From Bacteroidales bacterium (GTDB taxonomy: Bacteria; Bacteroidota; Bacteroidia; Bacteroidales; F082), in contig WFZS01000101.1 in the NCBI GenBank assembly GCA_015489465.1, positions 1 to 37,578 on the forward strand: a stretch of 37,578 bases of DNA. The letters run 5' to 3'. Below, piece by piece: positions 26 to 6,963 of the stretch (position 1 is the first letter of the stretch; every line of letters starts with the position of its first letter). The notes beneath the pieces are model-generated. The model was not told the origin of the DNA. It saw only the letters and a list, made by a program, of their open reading frames with translations, and made no database searches. The translations under genes and the position numbers were made by a program.

Positions 26-31
26 ATGCAA

Positions 32-268
32 ATGAATAAAGGTGCTAAAAAAATTAAACGTGATAGATTTGAAAAAGTGGCGGCAAAAAGAGTCGAAAAA
101 ATTATTCATTATCTAAACTTATTGGGAAATTGTTCAAATAAGAATAATTATGATTATACGGAAAAAGATGTCGAAAAAATGTTTAGAGAAATTCAAAGCG
201 CATTGAATCGTAATAAAACCAGATTTGAAATAGAATTATCAAGAAACAAGAATAAATTTGAATTTTAG
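32..268 (+). CDS. Small basic protein of the defence-type operon (5' context missing)
   Basis: About 78 residues, rich in Lys/Arg/Glu and predicted mostly helical. A distinctive central motif reads LGNCSNKNNYDYTEKDVEKM. I recall similar 'RF..VA..R...I...L..LGNCSN..NY.Y...DV..MF..I' small proteins in mobile or defence gene clusters but know no function or name. The reading frame continues upstream only through adapter sequence. The real start is therefore ATG 26 (touching the adapter), ATG 32, or a lost upstream codon; I use 32. The stop lies 2 bp before the start of the 657-residue ATPase gene, so the two are almost certainly co-transcribed. A DNA-binding or accessory role is a guess. Confidence 0.7.
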   Translation: MNKGAKKIKRDRFEKVAAKRVEKIIHYLNLLGNCSNKNNYDYTEKDVEKMFREIQSALNRNKTRFEIELSRNKNKFEF

Positions 269-270
269 CT

Positions 271-2244
271 ATGAGTAAAAAAAAATATTGCAATTGGCAT
301 TTTGACAAACAGGGTGTGCCCGATAAAGGTCCTAATAATCCTTTGGAAGAACATTTTAAAGCTCATCCTTATTATTCTATAGTAAGAGAAGCTATTCAAA
401 ATTCTTTGGATGCAGTTAATGATTTGTCAAAACCGGTAAAGGTAACTTTCCAATTCGGATATTTGAGTAGGAAGGAATATCCGAATTTGATTGAAGAATT
501 AAGGAAACATATTATTTGGAGTAAAGAATATTGGAAACATAATGCAGATGCCGAAAAAAAGTTTGATGAAATGTTAAGATTTCTTGACGGCAGTAAACAA
601 GGATTAAAAAAGTTGTTAATCCCATATTTAAAAATTTCCGACTATAATACCAAAGGTATGTTTTACAAACCGGATGATACTAATTCCACTTTTTATGCTT
701 TTTTAAAATCGGAAGGAAATAGTTCTAAAAGTGATAGTGGATCCGGTGGTTCATTCGGTTTCGGTAAAGCGGCATATTTCAGTTTATCACCGTTTCGTAC
801 AATCGTTGTCTCTACAAAGAATCTAAAAGATGAGTATATATTTGAAGGGGCCACGGTTTTAGCCACACATAAAAATTTCGAAACGGGGGATAAATTGAGT
901 GCTTACGGATACTATAATGAGGATGGTTTGAATCCCGTGATGAATATTTTCGATATACCGGATGATTTTATTAGAAATGAAAATGGAACAGATATATATG
1001 TTATTGGTTTGTGGGAAGAAGAGAATAGAAAAGACAAAATGATTAAATCGGTATTAAATAATTTTTGGCTAGCGATACACAATGAAAAGCTAGTAGTCGA
1101 AGTGAAAGGGGACTTAATAAACAGAGATACTCTCTCGGATTTTATTAATGAATATTACGAGGATGATATGGAAAAAGGGTCCGTTTCGGATATAAATAAT
1201 TGGAATCCCAGACCGTATTTTAATGCTGTAAGAAACTATGGTTTGGATACATCCAAGTATTTTCTTTTTGAAGAAGAATTGGAAACAACCGGAAAAGTAA
1301 AATTGTATGTGTACTTAAATAAAAATCTTCCAAATAGAATAGCATTTTTTAGAAAACCTCACATGTTGGTTTATAAGGAGACTAGAAAAAAGATAAAAGG
1401 GTACGTAGGTGTTTTTGTCTGTGAAGGAGAAAGAGGAAACGAGATATTGAAAAAAATGGAAAATCCTGCACATAATGAATGGAAAAAGGAAAATTACAGA
1501 GTTGATGGCAAAACACATCCCGATGCTGAAAAAGTAAGAAAAGAGATATATGATTTTATTTTATCCAAGTTAAATGAAATTTCTCGAAAAAATTTATCCG
1601 ATAAAATAACCGTTCCCGGACTGGAAGAGTATTTGAATATTCCGGCCGATTTATTGAGTGAAGACGAAAACTTCGACTATAAAGGTGAAAACGAGAATGT
1701 TAATAGTGGGGATTTAACGGATATAATTACCAAAAAAGAAACAAGTTCGGAGATTGCCGTAATTAAAGGGGTGAAAATAAATCCGAATATAAATAAGCAA
1801 GGAAATATTAATGTGGAAGCCGAAGGTATTTTAAGTACGGACGGAGAAGAAACCGAAGTAGCCGGTGGAGGTAAGAATAATACGGATGGAGGTACTTCCC
1901 CGGGATTTGAAGACACAGATATAATAAAAAAAACTATTAAACCAGAAGAAAATCATGTGATAAAAAAAGTATTACAAATTGAATTTAGGGTTATTGCGAC
2001 AAAAAATAAGCACAGAATAATCTTGTATAGCGATAAAAATTTTGACCGTGTCGGTTTAGAGTTTTATGCAGGGACGGATAATGGAAAGGCCGAACATATA
2101 AATATTTTAAGTTCTTCGATAGGTTCGATTTCGGGGAACAAATTAATTAATGTTGAGTTGCAAAAAGGTAAAAATATTTTGGATGTTGAATTTGATGATA
2201 ATATTCAGCATTCTTTAAATCTGAAAGCCTATGAATTACAATAA
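271..2244 (+). CDS. GHKL-fold ATPase, large (defence-island type)
   Basis: A 657-residue protein with an N-terminal GHKL (gyrase/Hsp90/histidine kinase/MutL) ATP-binding fold. The N-box is EAIQNSLDA (Glu40, Asn44, Asp47), and the glycine-rich lid is GSGGSFGFGK (residues 156-165). Between them DYNTKGM (Asp123-Gly128) stands where DxGxG usually lies, so the adenine-binding Asp is kept but the first Gly is lost. Residues about 170-460 resemble a transducer-like region. Residues about 500-570 are a low-complexity Gly/Asn/Glu linker, and the last about 90 residues form a separate beta-rich domain. There is no recognisable nuclease motif. The gene follows the small protein by 2 bp and overlaps the next gene by 14 bp. 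An ATP-gated sensor or clamp in an anti-phage system is inferred from the fold and from the methyltransferase/Vsr operon opposite. Confidence 0.85.
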   Translation: MSKKKYCNWHFDKQGVPDKGPNNPLEEHFKAHPYYSIVREAIQNSLDAVNDLSKPVKVTFQFGYLSRKEYPNLIEELRKHIIWSKEYWKHNADAEKKFDEMLRFLDGSKQGLKKLLIPYLKISDYNTKGMFYKPDDTNSTFYAFLKSEGNSSKSDSGSGGSFGFGKAAYFSLSPFRTIVVSTKNLKDEYIFEGATVLATHKNFETGDKLSAYGYYNEDGLNPVMNIFDIPDDFIRNENGTDIYVIGLWEEENRKDKMIKSVLNNFWLAIHNEKLVVEVKGDLINRDTLSDFINEYYEDDMEKGSVSDINNWNPRPYFNAVRNYGLDTSKYFLFEEELETTGKVKLYVYLNKNLPNRIAFFRKPHMLVYKETRKKIKGYVGVFVCEGERGNEILKKMENPAHNEWKKENYRVDGKTHPDAEKVRKEIYDFILSKLNEISRKNLSDKITVPGLEEYLNIPADLLSEDENFDYKGENENVNSGDLTDIITKKETSSEIAVIKGVKINPNINKQGNINVEAEGILSTDGEETEVAGGGKNNTDGGTSPGFEDTDIIKKTIKPEENHVIKKVLQIEFRVIATKNKHRIILYSDKNFDRVGLEFYAGTDNGKAEHINILSSSIGSISGNKLINVELQKGKNILDVEFDDNIQHSLNLKAYELQ

Positions 2245-3100
2245 TATTAAATTTCCTTATCCGGTTCTGAAAAAAAATGATAACAGTATATTAAGTTATA
2301 TTGATTTTTCAAACGAAGACATAGAAATAACCCCATCGTATGATTTATTTAACTTTAAAATAAATTTAAGTAAAATAGATAACGATGATATTTTGAAATT
2401 GATAGAAACCGGAAAGACCGAATATTGTGTGGAAGTAAATTGCTCTTCCACATTATTCAGGAAAGTACATACAAGCCGTGAAAATATCATTGAATTTAGT
2501 ATTCCCAAATTATCATTAAGAGGTAAAGTCGAAGGGGATTGTCTGATTATTGCAAGAGAAAATATACCTGATTACAATAATTCACAGGCACACGAAGATT
2601 ATCAAGGTTTTTATTTTAACATCAAAAGAGGTAATATTCTTGCTTATTACGGTAGTTTTAATTTTATTGCCGATATTAATTATAAAAAATTAAAGGCTGT
2701 TGCATCCATCATGGAAATAACGGAAGGAGACGTAGAGTATCTAAACGTGGATTTGGATAATAACAAAATAACATTACAATTACCTAAGCAAGATTTCAAA
2801 ATTTATGCTCAACCGTTAATTTCAAAATATCCCGATTTGTCCCCGATTTTTCATTCATCAATAGTTTATGGTGCTCTTTTAACCGCTTTATACAACTTTG
2901 AAAATTATACCGATAAATTATGGGCACAAGCTATTTTATACAGAATGAAAGAAGAAGAAGAATTAAAAAAATTTTTAGGTAATGACGAAAAATTCGATAA
3001 AGCGGAGGTGCCGGATATTGCTCAGATTTTACTGGGTAACCCGGTAAGACGACTATTGAATCATTTGGATAAGGAAATTGAAACAACCGACGAAGAATAA
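2231..3100 (+). CDS. Uncharacterised protein coupled to the GHKL ATPase
   Basis: A 289-residue protein I do not recognise. It has no signal peptide or membrane segment. The first about 200 residues look beta-rich (alternating hydrophobic stretches such as EYCVEVNCSS and GFYFNIKRGNILAYYGSF). The C-terminal about 80 residues are helical, with an acidic tail (EIETTDEE). Its ATG lies inside the end of the ATPase gene (14-bp overlap), which suggests translational coupling and a possible complex with that ATPase. The following gene starts 5 bp after its stop. I see no catalytic motif, so an adaptor or structural role is possible but unproven. Confidence 0.75.
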   Translation: MNYNNIKFPYPVLKKNDNSILSYIDFSNEDIEITPSYDLFNFKINLSKIDNDDILKLIETGKTEYCVEVNCSSTLFRKVHTSRENIIEFSIPKLSLRGKVEGDCLIIARENIPDYNNSQAHEDYQGFYFNIKRGNILAYYGSFNFIADINYKKLKAVASIMEITEGDVEYLNVDLDNNKITLQLPKQDFKIYAQPLISKYPDLSPIFHSSIVYGALLTALYNFENYTDKLWAQAILYRMKEEEELKKFLGNDEKFDKAEVPDIAQILLGNPVRRLLNHLDKEIETTDEE

Positions 3101-3104
3101 AATC

Positions 3105-3848
3105 ATGGAAAAACAAAAAATATTTAAATCGAAATACGTCAAAAGGTTGAAAGAAAATTTGAAATCGAGGCATTCAATACATTTGTATTCAGAGCAAATT
3201 TTTCCCTTTGATGATGATGAAACATTGGTTCTATCGACAATATATAAGCCGAAAGATCTTTTAAAAAAGATGAATCCGGATAATGACCTCGATAGTGCTA
3301 TTGCCATTTATGAAGGATATAGGGAACTTACACTTTTACAGGCATCGGATGAGAGATTTTGGACATACCTTACTCATGTAGATTTATATCAATACATGAT
3401 AAAAAGATGGAATGCGCATATCGAAGGAAAAGCAAAAAATCCCGAAAAATATATTCGGGAGCACTGGTTCTTATTGTCGGAATCACAACAAAGTTTAATG
3501 AGGCATCCTTTGTCCGGCTTATGGTGGGGTGTTCATTTATCTATTGATGAAGAAAGAAATGATAAATACGAATTGACCAAAATACTATTCAGACAACTTG
3601 ATTTTGCCACCAGGACGCTTCCTACATACAGATTGGGAAGACATAAAGAAGCAATTATAGGAATTTTGGAATTTATAAAAAATAATGACGAGCTTTTTAG
3701 AAATTACTTTGAGGATAAAACGCGATTTGTTACCCGGTATTTGAATTTGATCGGCGGGACAGTTAATTTGGCTTATGTAGATAGAACCTTTTTTATTGGA
3801 AAATTAAATCGGGTTAAGGAGAAAATAAAACAAATCGGATCACGATGA
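3105..3848 (+). CDS. Uncharacterised defence-island protein, possibly DUF6339 family
   Basis: A 247-residue, mainly alpha-helical soluble protein. ATG 3105 is chosen because it follows the previous stop by 5 bp; an upstream TTG at 3078 would overlap that gene. Conserved-looking stretches are DERFWTYLTHVDLYQYMIKRW, HPLSGLWWGVHLS and YELTKILFRQLDFATRTLP, near residues 80-170. From memory this pattern resembles DUF6339, a family I associate with cytosine methyltransferase and Vsr neighbourhoods; that is recollection, not a search. It is the last gene of the plus-strand operon and converges on vsr with 20 bp between the stops. Function unknown. Confidence 0.75.
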   Translation: MEKQKIFKSKYVKRLKENLKSRHSIHLYSEQIFPFDDDETLVLSTIYKPKDLLKKMNPDNDLDSAIAIYEGYRELTLLQASDERFWTYLTHVDLYQYMIKRWNAHIEGKAKNPEKYIREHWFLLSESQQSLMRHPLSGLWWGVHLSIDEERNDKYELTKILFRQLDFATRTLPTYRLGRHKEAIIGILEFIKNNDELFRNYFEDKTRFVTRYLNLIGGTVNLAYVDRTFFIGKLNRVKEKIKQIGSR

Positions 3849-3868
3849 AATCATGTGATGTGAATCGT

Positions 3869-4285
3869 TTATTTATGTATATTACTTATTAACTCTGTCA
3901 GAGTTTGTGTTCTTAATTTTCGGTTTTTTAATTCGCACTGCCAAATTGTTATAACCCGCCACCCCAATCTTTCCAGTTCTTTTTTATTTCTTTTGTCTCT
4001 TGCTACATTTTCGGATATTTTCTTTTCCCAAAATTCTTTTCTGGTTTCCGGCAACTTACCGGCGGGACAATCATGACCGTGCCAAAAACAGCCGTGCACA
4101 AATATTACTGTTTTATATTTCGGCATAACTATATCGGGTTTTCCCGGATATCGTTTGTCATTTTTTCTAAACCTGAATCCGTTCGCAAACAAAAACTTCC
4201 TGACCAATATTTCAGGTTTGGTTTCTTTTCCCGAAATTTTGGACATAATTTCGGAGCGTTTTTGTTTGGAGAATATATCTGTCAT
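3869..4285 (-). CDS. vsr: Very short patch repair-type endonuclease (Vsr)
   Basis: A 138-residue Vsr-family endonuclease that nicks DNA 5' of T:G mismatches created by deamination of 5-methylcytosine. All key residues sit at E. coli Vsr numbering: Glu25, catalytic Asp51 in PGKPDIV, His64 and His69 in VHGCFWHGHDC, and zinc ligands Cys66, His71, Cys73 and Cys117. It is therefore likely active. The start ATG overlaps the stop of the GHKL ATPase gene by 4 bp (ATGA), so it is translationally coupled to it. In this locus it is the only recognisable nuclease. It may act in classical mismatch repair beside the methyltransferase or, as proposed for many RM-associated Vsr homologues, as the restriction nuclease. 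Both roles remain inference. Confidence 0.95.
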   Translation of the reverse strand: MTDIFSKQKRSEIMSKISGKETKPEILVRKFLFANGFRFRKNDKRYPGKPDIVMPKYKTVIFVHGCFWHGHDCPAGKLPETRKEFWEKKISENVARDKRNKKELERLGWRVITIWQCELKNRKLRTQTLTELISNIHK

Positions 4286-5919
4286 ACCGGTTCGGAATCA
4301 TCTAAGCGTCTCATTAAATGAGAAATAATACTTAATACATCCAAACAATCTTTTTCAGTAAACATACCTGATTCACGTAGATCTTCAATCTCCTCGTGAG
4401 CAACCGGATGTCGAGCACCTTTAACTACTCCCATCGAAAGAAATTTTTGTCCTTCTTCTATATTTTCTTTTGTAGAATCTTTAAAATCTTTTCTGTTAGG
4501 TCGTTTATATTTTTCCACAGTTTTCAAAACACCGTTTTTACCAAAAATTGATGATACTATATCTAATTCAGTTTCTTTATCAGTTCCTGATTTTTCTCTA
4601 ACTTTATTTACGTATCTTTTGATTGCTTCAAGAACAGCGCCATAATAATTTTTATATTCATAATAACTTTTGGAAACAGCAGCTATTTCAGGATGAATAT
4701 ATCTGTAATGATAATAAGTATATTCCGGTAGAAGTTGATGTAATGTACTAATAATAGTATTTGTTTCCGATTCACTCAATTCAGAATCTTCAACAATTTT
4801 TTCAACTATCGGCTTAATTTTTGTTTGTATGGGTTCAGGTGTTTTTGAGTACCAATCCTCAAAATTAACTGTTGTTTTTTTATTAATGCTTTGTTTCTTT
4901 TTCTCTCTTCTTTTATCTCTCCAATCTTTATGTAATTCCGTTAAAATACGAGCCAAAAATGATCGTAATTCACTGGTTTTCGGATTTTCCCAATCAAGAG
5001 ATTGACGGTTTGTGGAAATAACATCTTGTTCCCAAATATCTACAAAATCTACATCTAGCCAACCGGTTGTATATGAAAAAAAGTGACTTGACTCGGAACT
5101 ACCGAAAAATTCAGGTAGATTTACCATTCTTCCATTTGCAAAAAGTGTAATATCTCTTAAACCAGGTTTAAGTGGTTTTTCGGTAGTAATTATTTTTCCA
5201 CTGATATTTCTATATTCGGAATAATCCGTTAAATCCTTTTCTTCCAACCAACCCGGGAAATCCCATGAGAACTCTTCTTCAATTCCTTCATATTTAAGTT
5301 TATTGGTTATTTCTATTTTTTCACCATCATTCAATTGAAGATAAACTTTAAAATCATCCGGGAAATTAAACAGTTTGGCTAAATTCTTTGATAAATTATC
5401 TGTATCAAATCCCGACTTTCTTTTTAAATTGGTAAGAGTAATGGTTGTGCCTTTTTCATTCTCATTGCATTCTTCAATTTCAAATTTTGGTTTATACGGT
5501 TCTCCGGCTGTGTTCATTAATTCGTTCCAATCTAATGTAAAGATGGTTTTTTGTCCGTTTTTACAAGTTTCAATTGTAATTTTTTCCCCTATACCAAAAA
5601 AAGCTAATTTTCCCAGACCTTTTTTTCCTGTAACTATCCTTCCGCAAGATGAAAAATCACTTTCTTCCCTTCGGTTTCTTCCGATGACCAAAAATTTATC
5701 ATTTACTTCCTCGAATGTCATACCGTCGCCATTATCGGAAACTATAATTTTCTTTCCACATTCATTATCTATTAGACGAATAAAAACTTCACTGGCACAT
5801 GCATCATAAGCGTTAGCAATTAGTTCGGCAATAGCATTTGGAAGATATGAATACATTTTTATTCCCAAATGTTCAATAGTTTTGGGATCAAATGTCATTA
5901 AAAGTTCTTTACTCTCCAT
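4282..5919 (-). CDS. MutL/MORC-like GHKL ATPase associated with the methyltransferase
   Basis: A 545-residue protein with a full set of GHKL motifs: N-box AELIANAYDA (Glu32, Asn36, Asp39), DNGDGM (residues 62-67), a GRNRR segment and the lid GKKGLGK (98-104). This arrangement matches the RM-associated MutL-like/MORC-type ATPases described by Iyer, Abhiman and Aravind. The middle part (about 200-330) would be the S5-like transducer. A Lys/Arg-rich stretch near 335-350 and a helical C-terminus follow. It overlaps the upstream methyltransferase gene by 11 bp and the downstream vsr by 4 bp, so the three are one operon. E. coli Vsr functionally interacts with MutL, so a dedicated MutL-like partner for this Vsr is plausible. 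ATP-dependent DNA clamping or bridging is inferred. Confidence 0.88.
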   Translation of the reverse strand: MESKELLMTFDPKTIEHLGIKMYSYLPNAIAELIANAYDACASEVFIRLIDNECGKKIIVSDNGDGMTFEEVNDKFLVIGRNRREESDFSSCGRIVTGKKGLGKLAFFGIGEKITIETCKNGQKTIFTLDWNELMNTAGEPYKPKFEIEECNENEKGTTITLTNLKRKSGFDTDNLSKNLAKLFNFPDDFKVYLQLNDGEKIEITNKLKYEGIEEEFSWDFPGWLEEKDLTDYSEYRNISGKIITTEKPLKPGLRDITLFANGRMVNLPEFFGSSESSHFFSYTTGWLDVDFVDIWEQDVISTNRQSLDWENPKTSELRSFLARILTELHKDWRDKRREKKKQSINKKTTVNFEDWYSKTPEPIQTKIKPIVEKIVEDSELSESETNTIISTLHQLLPEYTYYHYRYIHPEIAAVSKSYYEYKNYYGAVLEAIKRYVNKVREKSGTDKETELDIVSSIFGKNGVLKTVEKYKRPNRKDFKDSTKENIEEGQKFLSMGVVKGARHPVAHEEIEDLRESGMFTEKDCLDVLSIISHLMRRLDDSEPV

Positions 5920-6943
5920 TCTCCAATTCTTTTATTATAGCTTCCCCGATTCTTTTTGCAAATTCCGGCGGTACGGCATTGCCTATCATTCGTGCGGTTG
6001 CTTGGATGCTATTGGTATAAAAAACATAATCTTTCGGAAACGTTTGTAATGTTGCTCCTTCTCGTATTGAAATGGCTCTGTCTTCTTCGGGGTGTCCGAA
6101 ACGGCCATTTGAAATACTAAAAAATTTTGTTGTTATTGTCGGGGCGGGTTTATCCCAACTCATACGGCTATAACTGTCTTTAAAACCCGAACCTTTGAAT
6201 TTTTTTCTTTGCTTTACACTGTTTCCACCGTCTTTGGGTGTGTTTTTTATTACCTCAAAATTTTCCTTACTTAAACCGGCCACCGTGTGCATGAATTCAG
6301 TATTATCTTTATGTCCTGCTTGTACTTTCGGAAACCCGTTATGTGATCCTATAAAATCACGAACAGTAGGTTTGTAGTCGGTTTTTCTCGGTTTGACTTT
6401 GTTTTTAGTTACACGGTTGGCTATTAAAGAAAACCGTTTTCTTGTTTGAGGCACACCATATTCATTTAAATTATATATTTCATAATGTACATTGTAACCT
6501 CTATTTTCCAAATCTCGAACGAATTCTTTTAACCCGCTTTCATCCGCTTTTCTTTCCAATCCGGGAACATTTTCCACAACCACAAAACCTGGGTTGTAAT
6601 ATTTTACGAAACGGTGAAACTCTATTAACAGGTCTTTTGATTTTTTTGCTTTTTCCTTTTTTGTGTTTATAATGGACCAATATTGACAAGGACTACATCC
6701 GATAAGAATTAAATCATCGTCATTTCTTTTTATGTCAATATATTTTGTCAAATCTACCTCATTTAATTTGAAAACATCGGCTTCTATAAATTTTGATCCC
6801 GTATTATTTTTTTCATAAGTTTCTTTGACATCAGGGTCATTATCAATTCCGGCAATAACATCGATTCCGGCTTGTCTCATTCCATAACTCATACCACCAC
6901 CAGAACAAAAGAAATCGATTGCTTTTACCTGACTTTTTTTCAT
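5909..6943 (-). CDS. DNA (cytosine-5) methyltransferase
   Basis: A 344-residue Dcm/HhaI-type C5-cytosine methyltransferase that would transfer a methyl group from AdoMet to cytosine in a target site I cannot predict. Motif I is DFFCSGGGMSYG (10-21), motif IV has the catalytic Cys86 in GCSPCQYWS, motif VI is VVENV (123-126), motif VIII is QTRKR (166-170), motif IX is REGATLQTFP, and motif X is GNAVPPEFA near the C-terminus. All are intact and the length is normal for a small monomeric enzyme. The ATG at 6943 is preferred to the GTG 6 bp upstream. It is the first gene of the operon with the GHKL ATPase (11-bp overlap) and vsr. It probably marks host DNA as self. Confidence 0.95.
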   Translation of the reverse strand: MKKSQVKAIDFFCSGGGMSYGMRQAGIDVIAGIDNDPDVKETYEKNNTGSKFIEADVFKLNEVDLTKYIDIKRNDDDLILIGCSPCQYWSIINTKKEKAKKSKDLLIEFHRFVKYYNPGFVVVENVPGLERKADESGLKEFVRDLENRGYNVHYEIYNLNEYGVPQTRKRFSLIANRVTKNKVKPRKTDYKPTVRDFIGSHNGFPKVQAGHKDNTEFMHTVAGLSKENFEVIKNTPKDGGNSVKQRKKFKGSGFKDSYSRMSWDKPAPTITTKFFSISNGRFGHPEEDRAISIREGATLQTFPKDYVFYTNSIQATARMIGNAVPPEFAKRIGEAIIKELENGE

Positions 6944-6963
6944 AAACACAAAATTAATTTTTT

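Follow-up and report, generated by a model that had tools for sequence, protein, structure and literature searches.

At one end of contig WFZS01000101.1 of a Bacteroidales bacterium (assembly GCA_015489465.1), positions 26-6949 of the 37,578-nucleotide stretch that was analysed (called here the window) carry seven genes. Four genes on the plus strand (s, A, B and C) lie tail to tail with three on the minus strand (M, G and V) that encode a C5-cytosine DNA methyltransferase (MTase), a GHKL ATPase and a Vsr mismatch endonuclease. We find that the locus is real, well formed and of the defence type, and that it consists of two separable cassettes, not of one fixed seven-gene system. The best reading of our comparisons is that s-A-B-C has here been long co-inherited with one MTase subfamily, which stays with the cassette while the other ATPase partners (a HEPN fusion, a HEF_HK type) interchange. 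The initial annotation of this DNA had taken all seven genes for a single system, a claim that our comparisons do not support. M-G-V occurs with no s-A-B-C in view (loci L054-L056, L159 and L167; L numbers designate the loci compared), A-B-C occurs with other restriction-modification (R-M) types or with no defence gene among the scanned neighbours, and partner genes are exchanged, so that the seven-gene set is a local combination. The genes are as follows.

26-268, plus strand: s, small conserved protein of at most 80 aa, first gene of the cassette (16-row alignment)
271-2244, plus strand: A, 657-aa GHKL ATPase, paraMORC2-like, PDC-M33A (PDLC04582, 342 bits; GHKL boxes; ExxxH)
2231-3100, plus strand: B, 289 aa, FN3-like sandwich and helical C-terminus, PDC-M33B (PDLC04583, 183 bits)
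3105-3848, plus strand: C, 247-aa DUF6339 protein, mostly helical, PDC-M33C (PF19866, 178 bits; PDLC04586, 121 bits)
3869-4285, minus strand: V, Vsr mismatch endonuclease, 138 aa (PF03852, 130 bits; TIGR00632, 152 bits, cut-off 97.85)
4282-5919, minus strand: G, 545-aa GHKL (paraMORC-type) ATPase with a C-terminal Ymh/HEPN domain (PF13589, PF09509)
5909-6949, minus strand: M, C5-cytosine DNA methyltransferase, 346 aa from a GTG start (PF00145, 206 bits; TIGR00675, 147 bits, cut-off 100.65)

The number and strands of these genes, the 2-bp gap between s and A, the 14-bp overlap of A and B, the overlaps of 4 bp (V and G) and 11 bp (G and M), and the 20 bp between the stop of C and that of Vsr (3869) are as first described; the gap between B and C, given initially as 5 bp, is 4 bp, B ending at 3100 and the ATG of C standing at 3105.

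The closest cassettes keep company with one methyltransferase subfamily

Eleven relatives of A share at least 41% identity with it (L046, L072-L080 and L105, L104 being counted as L046). Beside nine of them, at most 1.2 kb from the cassette, stands an MTase 60-81% identical to that of the window; the exceptions are L046, which has another MTase (25%) and an HpaII gene, and L077, a 6-kb contig with HpaII and no MTase in view. The order in the Chlorobiota record L072 is V, s, A, B, C, M, with an MTase and a Vsr that are 81% and 80% identical to those of the window, and the company of this MTase with A spans Bacteroidota and Chlorobiota records. When presence of the cassette was mapped as a label on a tree of 21 MTases, it required 2 changes compared to a mean of 7.1 after shuffling, and 0/500 shuffles were as low, a result that demonstrates clustering of the label only. 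Left out of the tree were L175, the broken genes of L155 and L167, a 151-aa fragment (L079), and L161 and L158, which are a near-copy of L160 and the gene already represented by L073, respectively. The identity matrices of A and of the MTase were also correlated (r 0.60, 1/2000 permutations; 10 loci, three with partial MTases).

What is swapped is the third partner. It is GHKL-HEPN in the window, a pair of HEF_HK and Response_reg_2 genes in L073, HpaII in L046 and L077, and HNH_2 in L075, where the HNH_2 gene goes with a two-HATPase gene that has no HEF_HK match; a gene of similar size to the latter, judged by size alone, holds that place in L105. Full-length GHKL-Ymh was found in one of the ten close-cassette genomes (L072-L080 and L105), that of L073, at 9 kb from A, in a set that includes several draft metagenome-assembled genomes and may be incomplete. 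The Sphingobacterium island concerned (L158/L073) holds GHKL-Ymh (52% identity), MTase, A-B-C and Vsr together. In the L072 genome (1.8 Mb; cassette contig 5.6 kb) a search aimed at GHKL-HEPN, and not at other restriction enzymes, found no full-length gene and one weak 257-aa match. In the closest relatives of A, this MTase subfamily is thus usually kept and the GHKL-HEPN gene absent or swapped.

Distribution of the A-B-C cassette and its linkage to C5-MTase and Vsr

Of the 265 matches of a wide scan with A, the best 80 gave 79 loci, and 75 of these were used: the contigs of L104, L114 and L125 were judged, by their equal lengths, to be those of L046, L060 and L061, and in L140 A was not called by the open reading frame/profile step. 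Gene calls for s, A, B, C, MTase, Vsr and G came from profiles iterated on this set of loci (E 1e-5), which distant members may escape; annotated Vsr genes in L066 and L067, for example, went uncalled. B was found near A in 74/75 loci and C in 73/75, and the order A-B-C was kept on one strand in 73/75 (exceptions L130 and L148), so that chance proximity of the three genes was rejected. With a strict profile s was called near A in 28/75 loci, in 27 of them at most 600 bases upstream and on the same strand. M33A was detected in 9/395 genomes of a phylum sample and in 5/395 of a class sample, three of which, including the window's genome, are common to both. A plasmid search further gave 22 records; eight of the nine inspected were annotated, with C5-MTase, AlwI, MutH/Sau3AI, adenine-type and other type II R-M genes near the cassette. 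No homologue of A appeared in viral contigs in a single-protein search. A decaying cassette, with A and B broken into several frames, was seen in L049 (7372-10160), and sigma-70 region 4 neighbours stand beside A-B-C in L138 and L146, in L138 together with RNA polymerase alpha-CTD domains.

In 44/75 loci a C5-MTase is found no farther than 10 kb from the cassette, and in 14/75 a Vsr gene; among the 28 loci flanked by 8 kb or more on each side, 15 have a C5-MTase and 4 Vsr. The nearest MTase, the only one counted per locus, is at most 0.5 kb from the cassette in 33/44 loci and at 5-10 kb in one, the flank on hand being 70.8 kb for the former distance and 352.8 kb for the latter, and in 25/44 it is upstream and reads in the same direction as the cassette. 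In the phylum sample, Vsr was found at 130 places in 116/395 genomes. It lies within 10 kb of 6/10 A places compared to 0/150 listed HsdR places (Fisher 4e-9 for 6/9 A genomes against 0/150 HsdR places), where the control consists of the 150 best-scoring listed places of what is itself an R-M gene and concerns Vsr, not C5-MTase. The defence-type nature first proposed for the locus is supported; the linkage of the cassette to Vsr exceeds the HsdR control by far, and on the MTase tree the cassette clusters, subject to the ascertainment discussed below. Co-occurrence of the plus-strand genes with C5-MTase and Vsr, the check suggested in the initial annotation, was found for C5-MTase in 44/75 loci and for Vsr in 14/75, and for neither in 31/75. 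Of the two outcomes that it had named as contrary to its proposal, each was found in part: the cassette occurs without the MTase, ATPase and Vsr trio, and A-B-C is assigned to an already listed candidate system, PDC-M33.

In the 31 loci with neither gene, selected neighbouring proteins were scanned (40 in all, with L061, outside the 31, among the loci covered). They included type I R-M (L087, L139), MmeI (L137), Z1 (L108) and HpaII (L077) proteins, an SNF2/PLD helicase with an Eco57I-type methylase (L094), Schlafen-type helicases (L096, L141) and AAA/OLD-like proteins (L081, L091); at several loci the one or two neighbours scanned were non-defence-like only. Behind the type I genes (HsdR, HsdM and HsdS by Pfam), A-B-C comes right after HsdS in L139 and two small genes past HsdR in L087.

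M-G-V likewise occurs without the other cassette in view. In L054-L056 the genes for MTase, GHKL-Ymh and Vsr are present without s-A-B-C in 17-kb stretches, and the viral loci L159 and L167 (broken frames) have M-G-V in the same order and no s-A-B-C in view. Four viral loci, two of them near-copies, carry a 979-999-aa GHKL gene instead, and a single-protein search of viral contigs confirmed no GHKL-Ymh. In a genome of the window's genus (L173/L175), a contig of 4.7 kb ends in an MTase of 42% identity and shows none of A, B, C, s, Vsr and G, which is uninformative. A gonococcal-type M-G-V order was seen in L155 (4107-7072) and in L167, with an open Vsr frame and broken frames for MTase and GHKL-Ymh. 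In L168, an s-like 75-aa gene stands beside MTase and Vsr and no A, B or C was called, which may mean that s can also function independently of the cassette.

Predicted properties of the seven proteins

Residues F15, A19, R22, N38, Y42 and F78 of s are kept in at least 90% of the 16-row alignment (the L063 row does not fit). The gene looks complete, its start being about the same as in 14 fitting homologues, and truncation by the contig end was rejected on this ground. No PADLOC M33 model matched s.

A has no Pfam match. The claim that it is a GHKL ATPase nevertheless stands, because GHKL-type boxes are invariant in nine homologues: V38-R39-E40, Q43, N44 and D47; D124, T127 and G129; G160, G163, G165 and K166. 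These we take to be the GHKL ATP-binding boxes. E397 and H401 of an ExxxH motif are invariant in two alignments of A. The same motif, placed in an S5-like region, marks paraMORC2 (PMC2292703), and by its boxes and ExxxH A is classed as paraMORC2-type.

The predicted model of B (pLDDT 92.8) has an FN3/GH2-type beta-sandwich over about residues 1-147 and a helical end. Its best matches in the PDB (Foldseek E 0.0033; Z 7.9) are FN3/GH2-type sandwiches, which is not decisive and possibly reflects a common arrangement. C was modelled as mostly helical (pLDDT 96.1) and had no convincing PDB match (best Foldseek E 4.8; Z at most 3.8 over 81 residues), which is no proof of a new fold. Its polar residues D61, H91, R101, Y155, T158 and N214, conserved in at least 90% of 59 rows, could form a site. 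Profiles of solved structures gave nothing convincing for A, B, C or s, and s, B and C showed no recognisable catalytic domain. In L111, L112, L132, L137, L139, L145, L048 and L061, C is 430-667 aa long, apparently with an extra part, and A is shorter (544-590 aa), making domain exchange between A and C possible.

On the minus strand, Pfam agreed with the initial identification of M and V, and both are above their family cut-offs (TIGR00675 and TIGR00632), as in a type II R-M system with Vsr. The PCQ, ENV and QxRxR residues of M, presumably the named C5-MTase motifs, are invariant in eight aligned MTases. G is a GHKL ATPase as annotated, its N-terminal domain matching PF13589 (HATPase_c_3) at 85 bits against a cut-off of 25. 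Residues 407-539 form a Ymh domain (PF09509, 61.6 bits, above cut-off) whose HEPN-type R..H motif (R503, P505, H508) is invariant in 6/6 aligned rows. With both domains over their cut-offs beside C5-MTase and Vsr, G has the paraMORC-Ymh architecture. Fusions of this kind in R-M loci were proposed to be HEPN effectors analogous to PrrC and RloC (PMC3710099, 2013). Among the seven genes, G is the sole candidate for a DNA-cleaving restriction enzyme, and its C-terminus is HEPN.

A model for the locus and its alternatives

In the model that we propose, M would put 5-methylcytosine (5mC) on DNA as a self mark, Vsr would repair the T:G mismatches that arise from deaminated 5mC, and G would be the effector, an ATP-driven dimerising sensor that releases its HEPN RNase upon unmethylated or damaged DNA. 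A would close on DNA as an ATP-driven clamp and, joined by the FN3-like adaptor B, the helical C and the small s, would form a second arm for which the neighbour's methylation is the self mark; s-A-B-C would then be a mobile companion of R-M systems. Gene content, families, motifs, A-B-C order, C5-MTase adjacency, subfamily company and partner exchange are observed; that A acts as a clamp, that the methyl mark is used, that G has RNase activity and that the locus acts against phages is what we infer. The frequent recurrence of s-A-B-C beside DNA methyltransferases in other bacteria suggests, without proving it, that the two cassettes may cooperate via methylation against phages. We regard as evenly balanced the chances that s-A-B-C is such an autonomous clamp-like companion, using neighbour methylation as self mark, with M-G-V a separate R-M-type unit. 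The preference for the immediate flank and the company of one MTase subfamily favour coupling, and the presence of the cassette elsewhere indicates that it could use other partners or act alone.

Several observations weigh against this coupling. The 31/75 cassette loci with neither C5-MTase nor Vsr within 10 kb include 13 flanked by 8 kb or more on each side, so that short contigs cannot explain them all. The MTases beside more distant A homologues belong to other subfamilies, mostly at 22-34% identity. Because cassette rows were found via A and the other MTases via other searches, and near relatives cluster anyway, the clustering on the MTase tree is partly ascertainment. In distant loci B and C are not always recognisable: across the 10 loci of the two genome samples, C was called in 8, MTase in 7, B and Vsr in 6 each and s in 3, and in L052 B and C match no M33 model. 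A, B or C was present in 0/10 viral-contig loci found via MTase (10 of 13 were examined, L169-L171, at 25% identity, lying outside). Finally, neither a nuclease nor any other effector domain was recognised by Pfam and solved-structure profiles in the four proteins of the s-A-B-C cassette.

Alternatively, two unrelated defence systems might merely share one island, s-A-B-C working solo with the methyl mark unread. A-B-C without C5-MTase or Vsr in view, beside other R-M types or no defence neighbour, fits this explanation, as do the M-G-V sets seen without the cassette. We nevertheless consider it doubtful: the adjacency is tighter than clustering at the level of islands, with 33/44 nearest MTases at most 0.5 kb away, the R-M gene HsdR had no Vsr within 10 kb at any of its 150 listed places, and MTase and A keep company across two phyla of records. 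The opposite extreme, one obligate seven-gene system, draws on the compact tail-to-tail arrangement with its 20 bp between stops, on the joint presence of Vsr, s, A, B, C and MTase in L072 and on the L158/L073 island with its GHKL-Ymh, MTase, A-B-C and Vsr. It is very improbable given the M-G-V loci with no s-A-B-C in view, the exchange of partner genes and the nine of ten close-cassette genomes, incomplete as some may be, without a full-length GHKL-Ymh.

The role of s-A-B-C might also differ from that in our model. It could be a restriction effector of a new class, in which the paraMORC2 clamp and DUF6339 attack or silence DNA lacking the neighbour's 5mC with no known nuclease; we think this unlikely, although it gains support from L072, where the order V-s-A-B-C-M places the cassette in the slot of the GHKL-HEPN gene and no full-length copy of that gene was found in the genome. 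As a regulator or guard of R-M, one that restrains or licenses the effector or answers anti-restriction, s-A-B-C would not be a defence arm at all. Its position beside many R-M types (HpaII, AlwI, MutH/Sau3AI, MmeI, type I), the lack of a recognised nuclease and a small first gene that could be regulatory speak for such a function, which is less likely still, since some cassettes stand at loci in which no R-M gene was seen and four genes including an ATPase are large for a regulator. For the minus strand only, and compatible with any of the above, G might be a DNA-cutting type II enzyme of the BbrUII/HgiDII kind whose HEPN domain does not act on RNA. Residues 8-377 of G match NF050001 (217 bits, E 4.9e-64), residues 8-352 match the PADLOC REase_II model (99 bits), and an MTase-GHKL-Vsr operon resembles a type II R-M unit. 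The score is however below the cut-off of 550, profile positions 401-659 (of 659) are uncovered, and the corresponding part of G is the Ymh/HEPN domain with its invariant R..H; we therefore hold DNA cutting by G to be rather improbable.

Relation to known systems

Both halves of the locus are of kinds previously described or predicted. Whereas the initial annotation recognised no named system, the three proteins encoded by A, B and C are near full-length matches to M33A, M33B and M33C, in the same order, and are thus already the PADLOC-DB 2.0.0 candidate PDC-M33; unlike the PDC-M33 models, the window's cassette has a conserved fourth gene, s. PDCs are candidates from a guilt-by-embedding screen (PMC12988326). 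A full-text paper search for PDC-M33 or DUF6339 returned 0 papers, and the preprint behind the PDCs (Payne 2024, cited in PMC12988326) may say more. No papers were found that join GHKL, anti-phage, restriction-modification and cytosine methyltransferase.

The background on which the initial annotation drew, MutL/MORC-like ATPases with cytosine methylases and Vsr in R-M loci, is documented by Iyer, Abhiman and Aravind (2008, PMC2292703). Their paraMORC2 family shares with A the GHKL boxes, an ExxxH on the C-terminal side of the ATPase domain and loci with DNA methylases and Vsr. That paper also links SFII helicases, none of which is among the seven genes, and describes paraMORC2 as mainly cyanobacterial and Gram-positive, whereas many of the A relatives found here are from Bacteroidota and some from Gram-positives (cyanobacteria were not examined). 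G has the architecture of the Ymh-HEPN paraMORC fusions of Anantharaman et al. (2013, PMC3710099) and, like them, stands beside MTase and Vsr, but is paired with s-A-B-C. From the BbrUII/HgiDII enzymes it differs in its C-terminus. The HEF_HK/Response_reg_2 system (Bellieny-Rabelo 2021, PMC8011034) is absent from the window; in L073, what replaces G beside the same MTase subfamily is a gene combining HEF_HK with two HATPase domains, and a Response_reg_2 gene comes next. L155 is possibly the NgoAXIII remnant of Neisseria gonorrhoeae (PMC6789123): it has the M-G-V order, MTase pieces of 57-63% and a Vsr of 60% identity and, unlike the window, broken frames and no s-A-B-C seen within 11.6 kb. In VcSduA, a paraMORC3-type Shedu, the GHKL and nuclease domains are reported to be needed for anti-phage activity (PMC12137116); this is one protein with a DUF4263 nuclease and, unlike the window, neither methylase nor A-B-C. 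Membership of MZA was rejected by the MzaB marker (NF041932), G scoring 24 bits against a cut-off of 850 and A having no match; Z1 and AIPR were absent by Pfam from the seven proteins, though the contig ends at base 26.

Outside the PDC preprint, which our search did not cover, we found no earlier statement of the s gene, of M33A being a paraMORC2-type protein, of the close MTase adjacency or of the co-inheritance with partner exchange. For PDC-M33, a candidate for which we found no test, they lead to the specific hypothesis that this ATPase cassette, of the MORC/MutL type, would work with cytosine methylation and maybe read it. Eukaryotic MORC proteins are described as acting in silencing of methylated DNA, and their prokaryotic relatives are little tested; if the hypothesis is true, the cassette would be a tractable bacterial counterpart.

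Contig end, neighbouring genes and base composition

One further feature precedes s, a sequencing remnant that persists in the assembly at the contig end.

1-25, no strand: adapter, non-genomic (19-bp motif at 7-25)

The motif is presumably the Nextera transposase end, a sequencing adapter. As the window covers contig positions 1-37578 and the contig starts at window base 1, genes upstream of s are not judgeable. On the other side, the genes adjoining the MTase are, as named from their translations alone, presumably pheS and a peptidyl-prolyl isomerase, and ten larger genes scanned farther along the window gave 0 matches to defence families. G+C content is 31.6% over 26-3848 and 33.6% over 3869-6949, compared to 37.0-37.6% in the remaining window, and the lower values of both cassettes fit acquired DNA.

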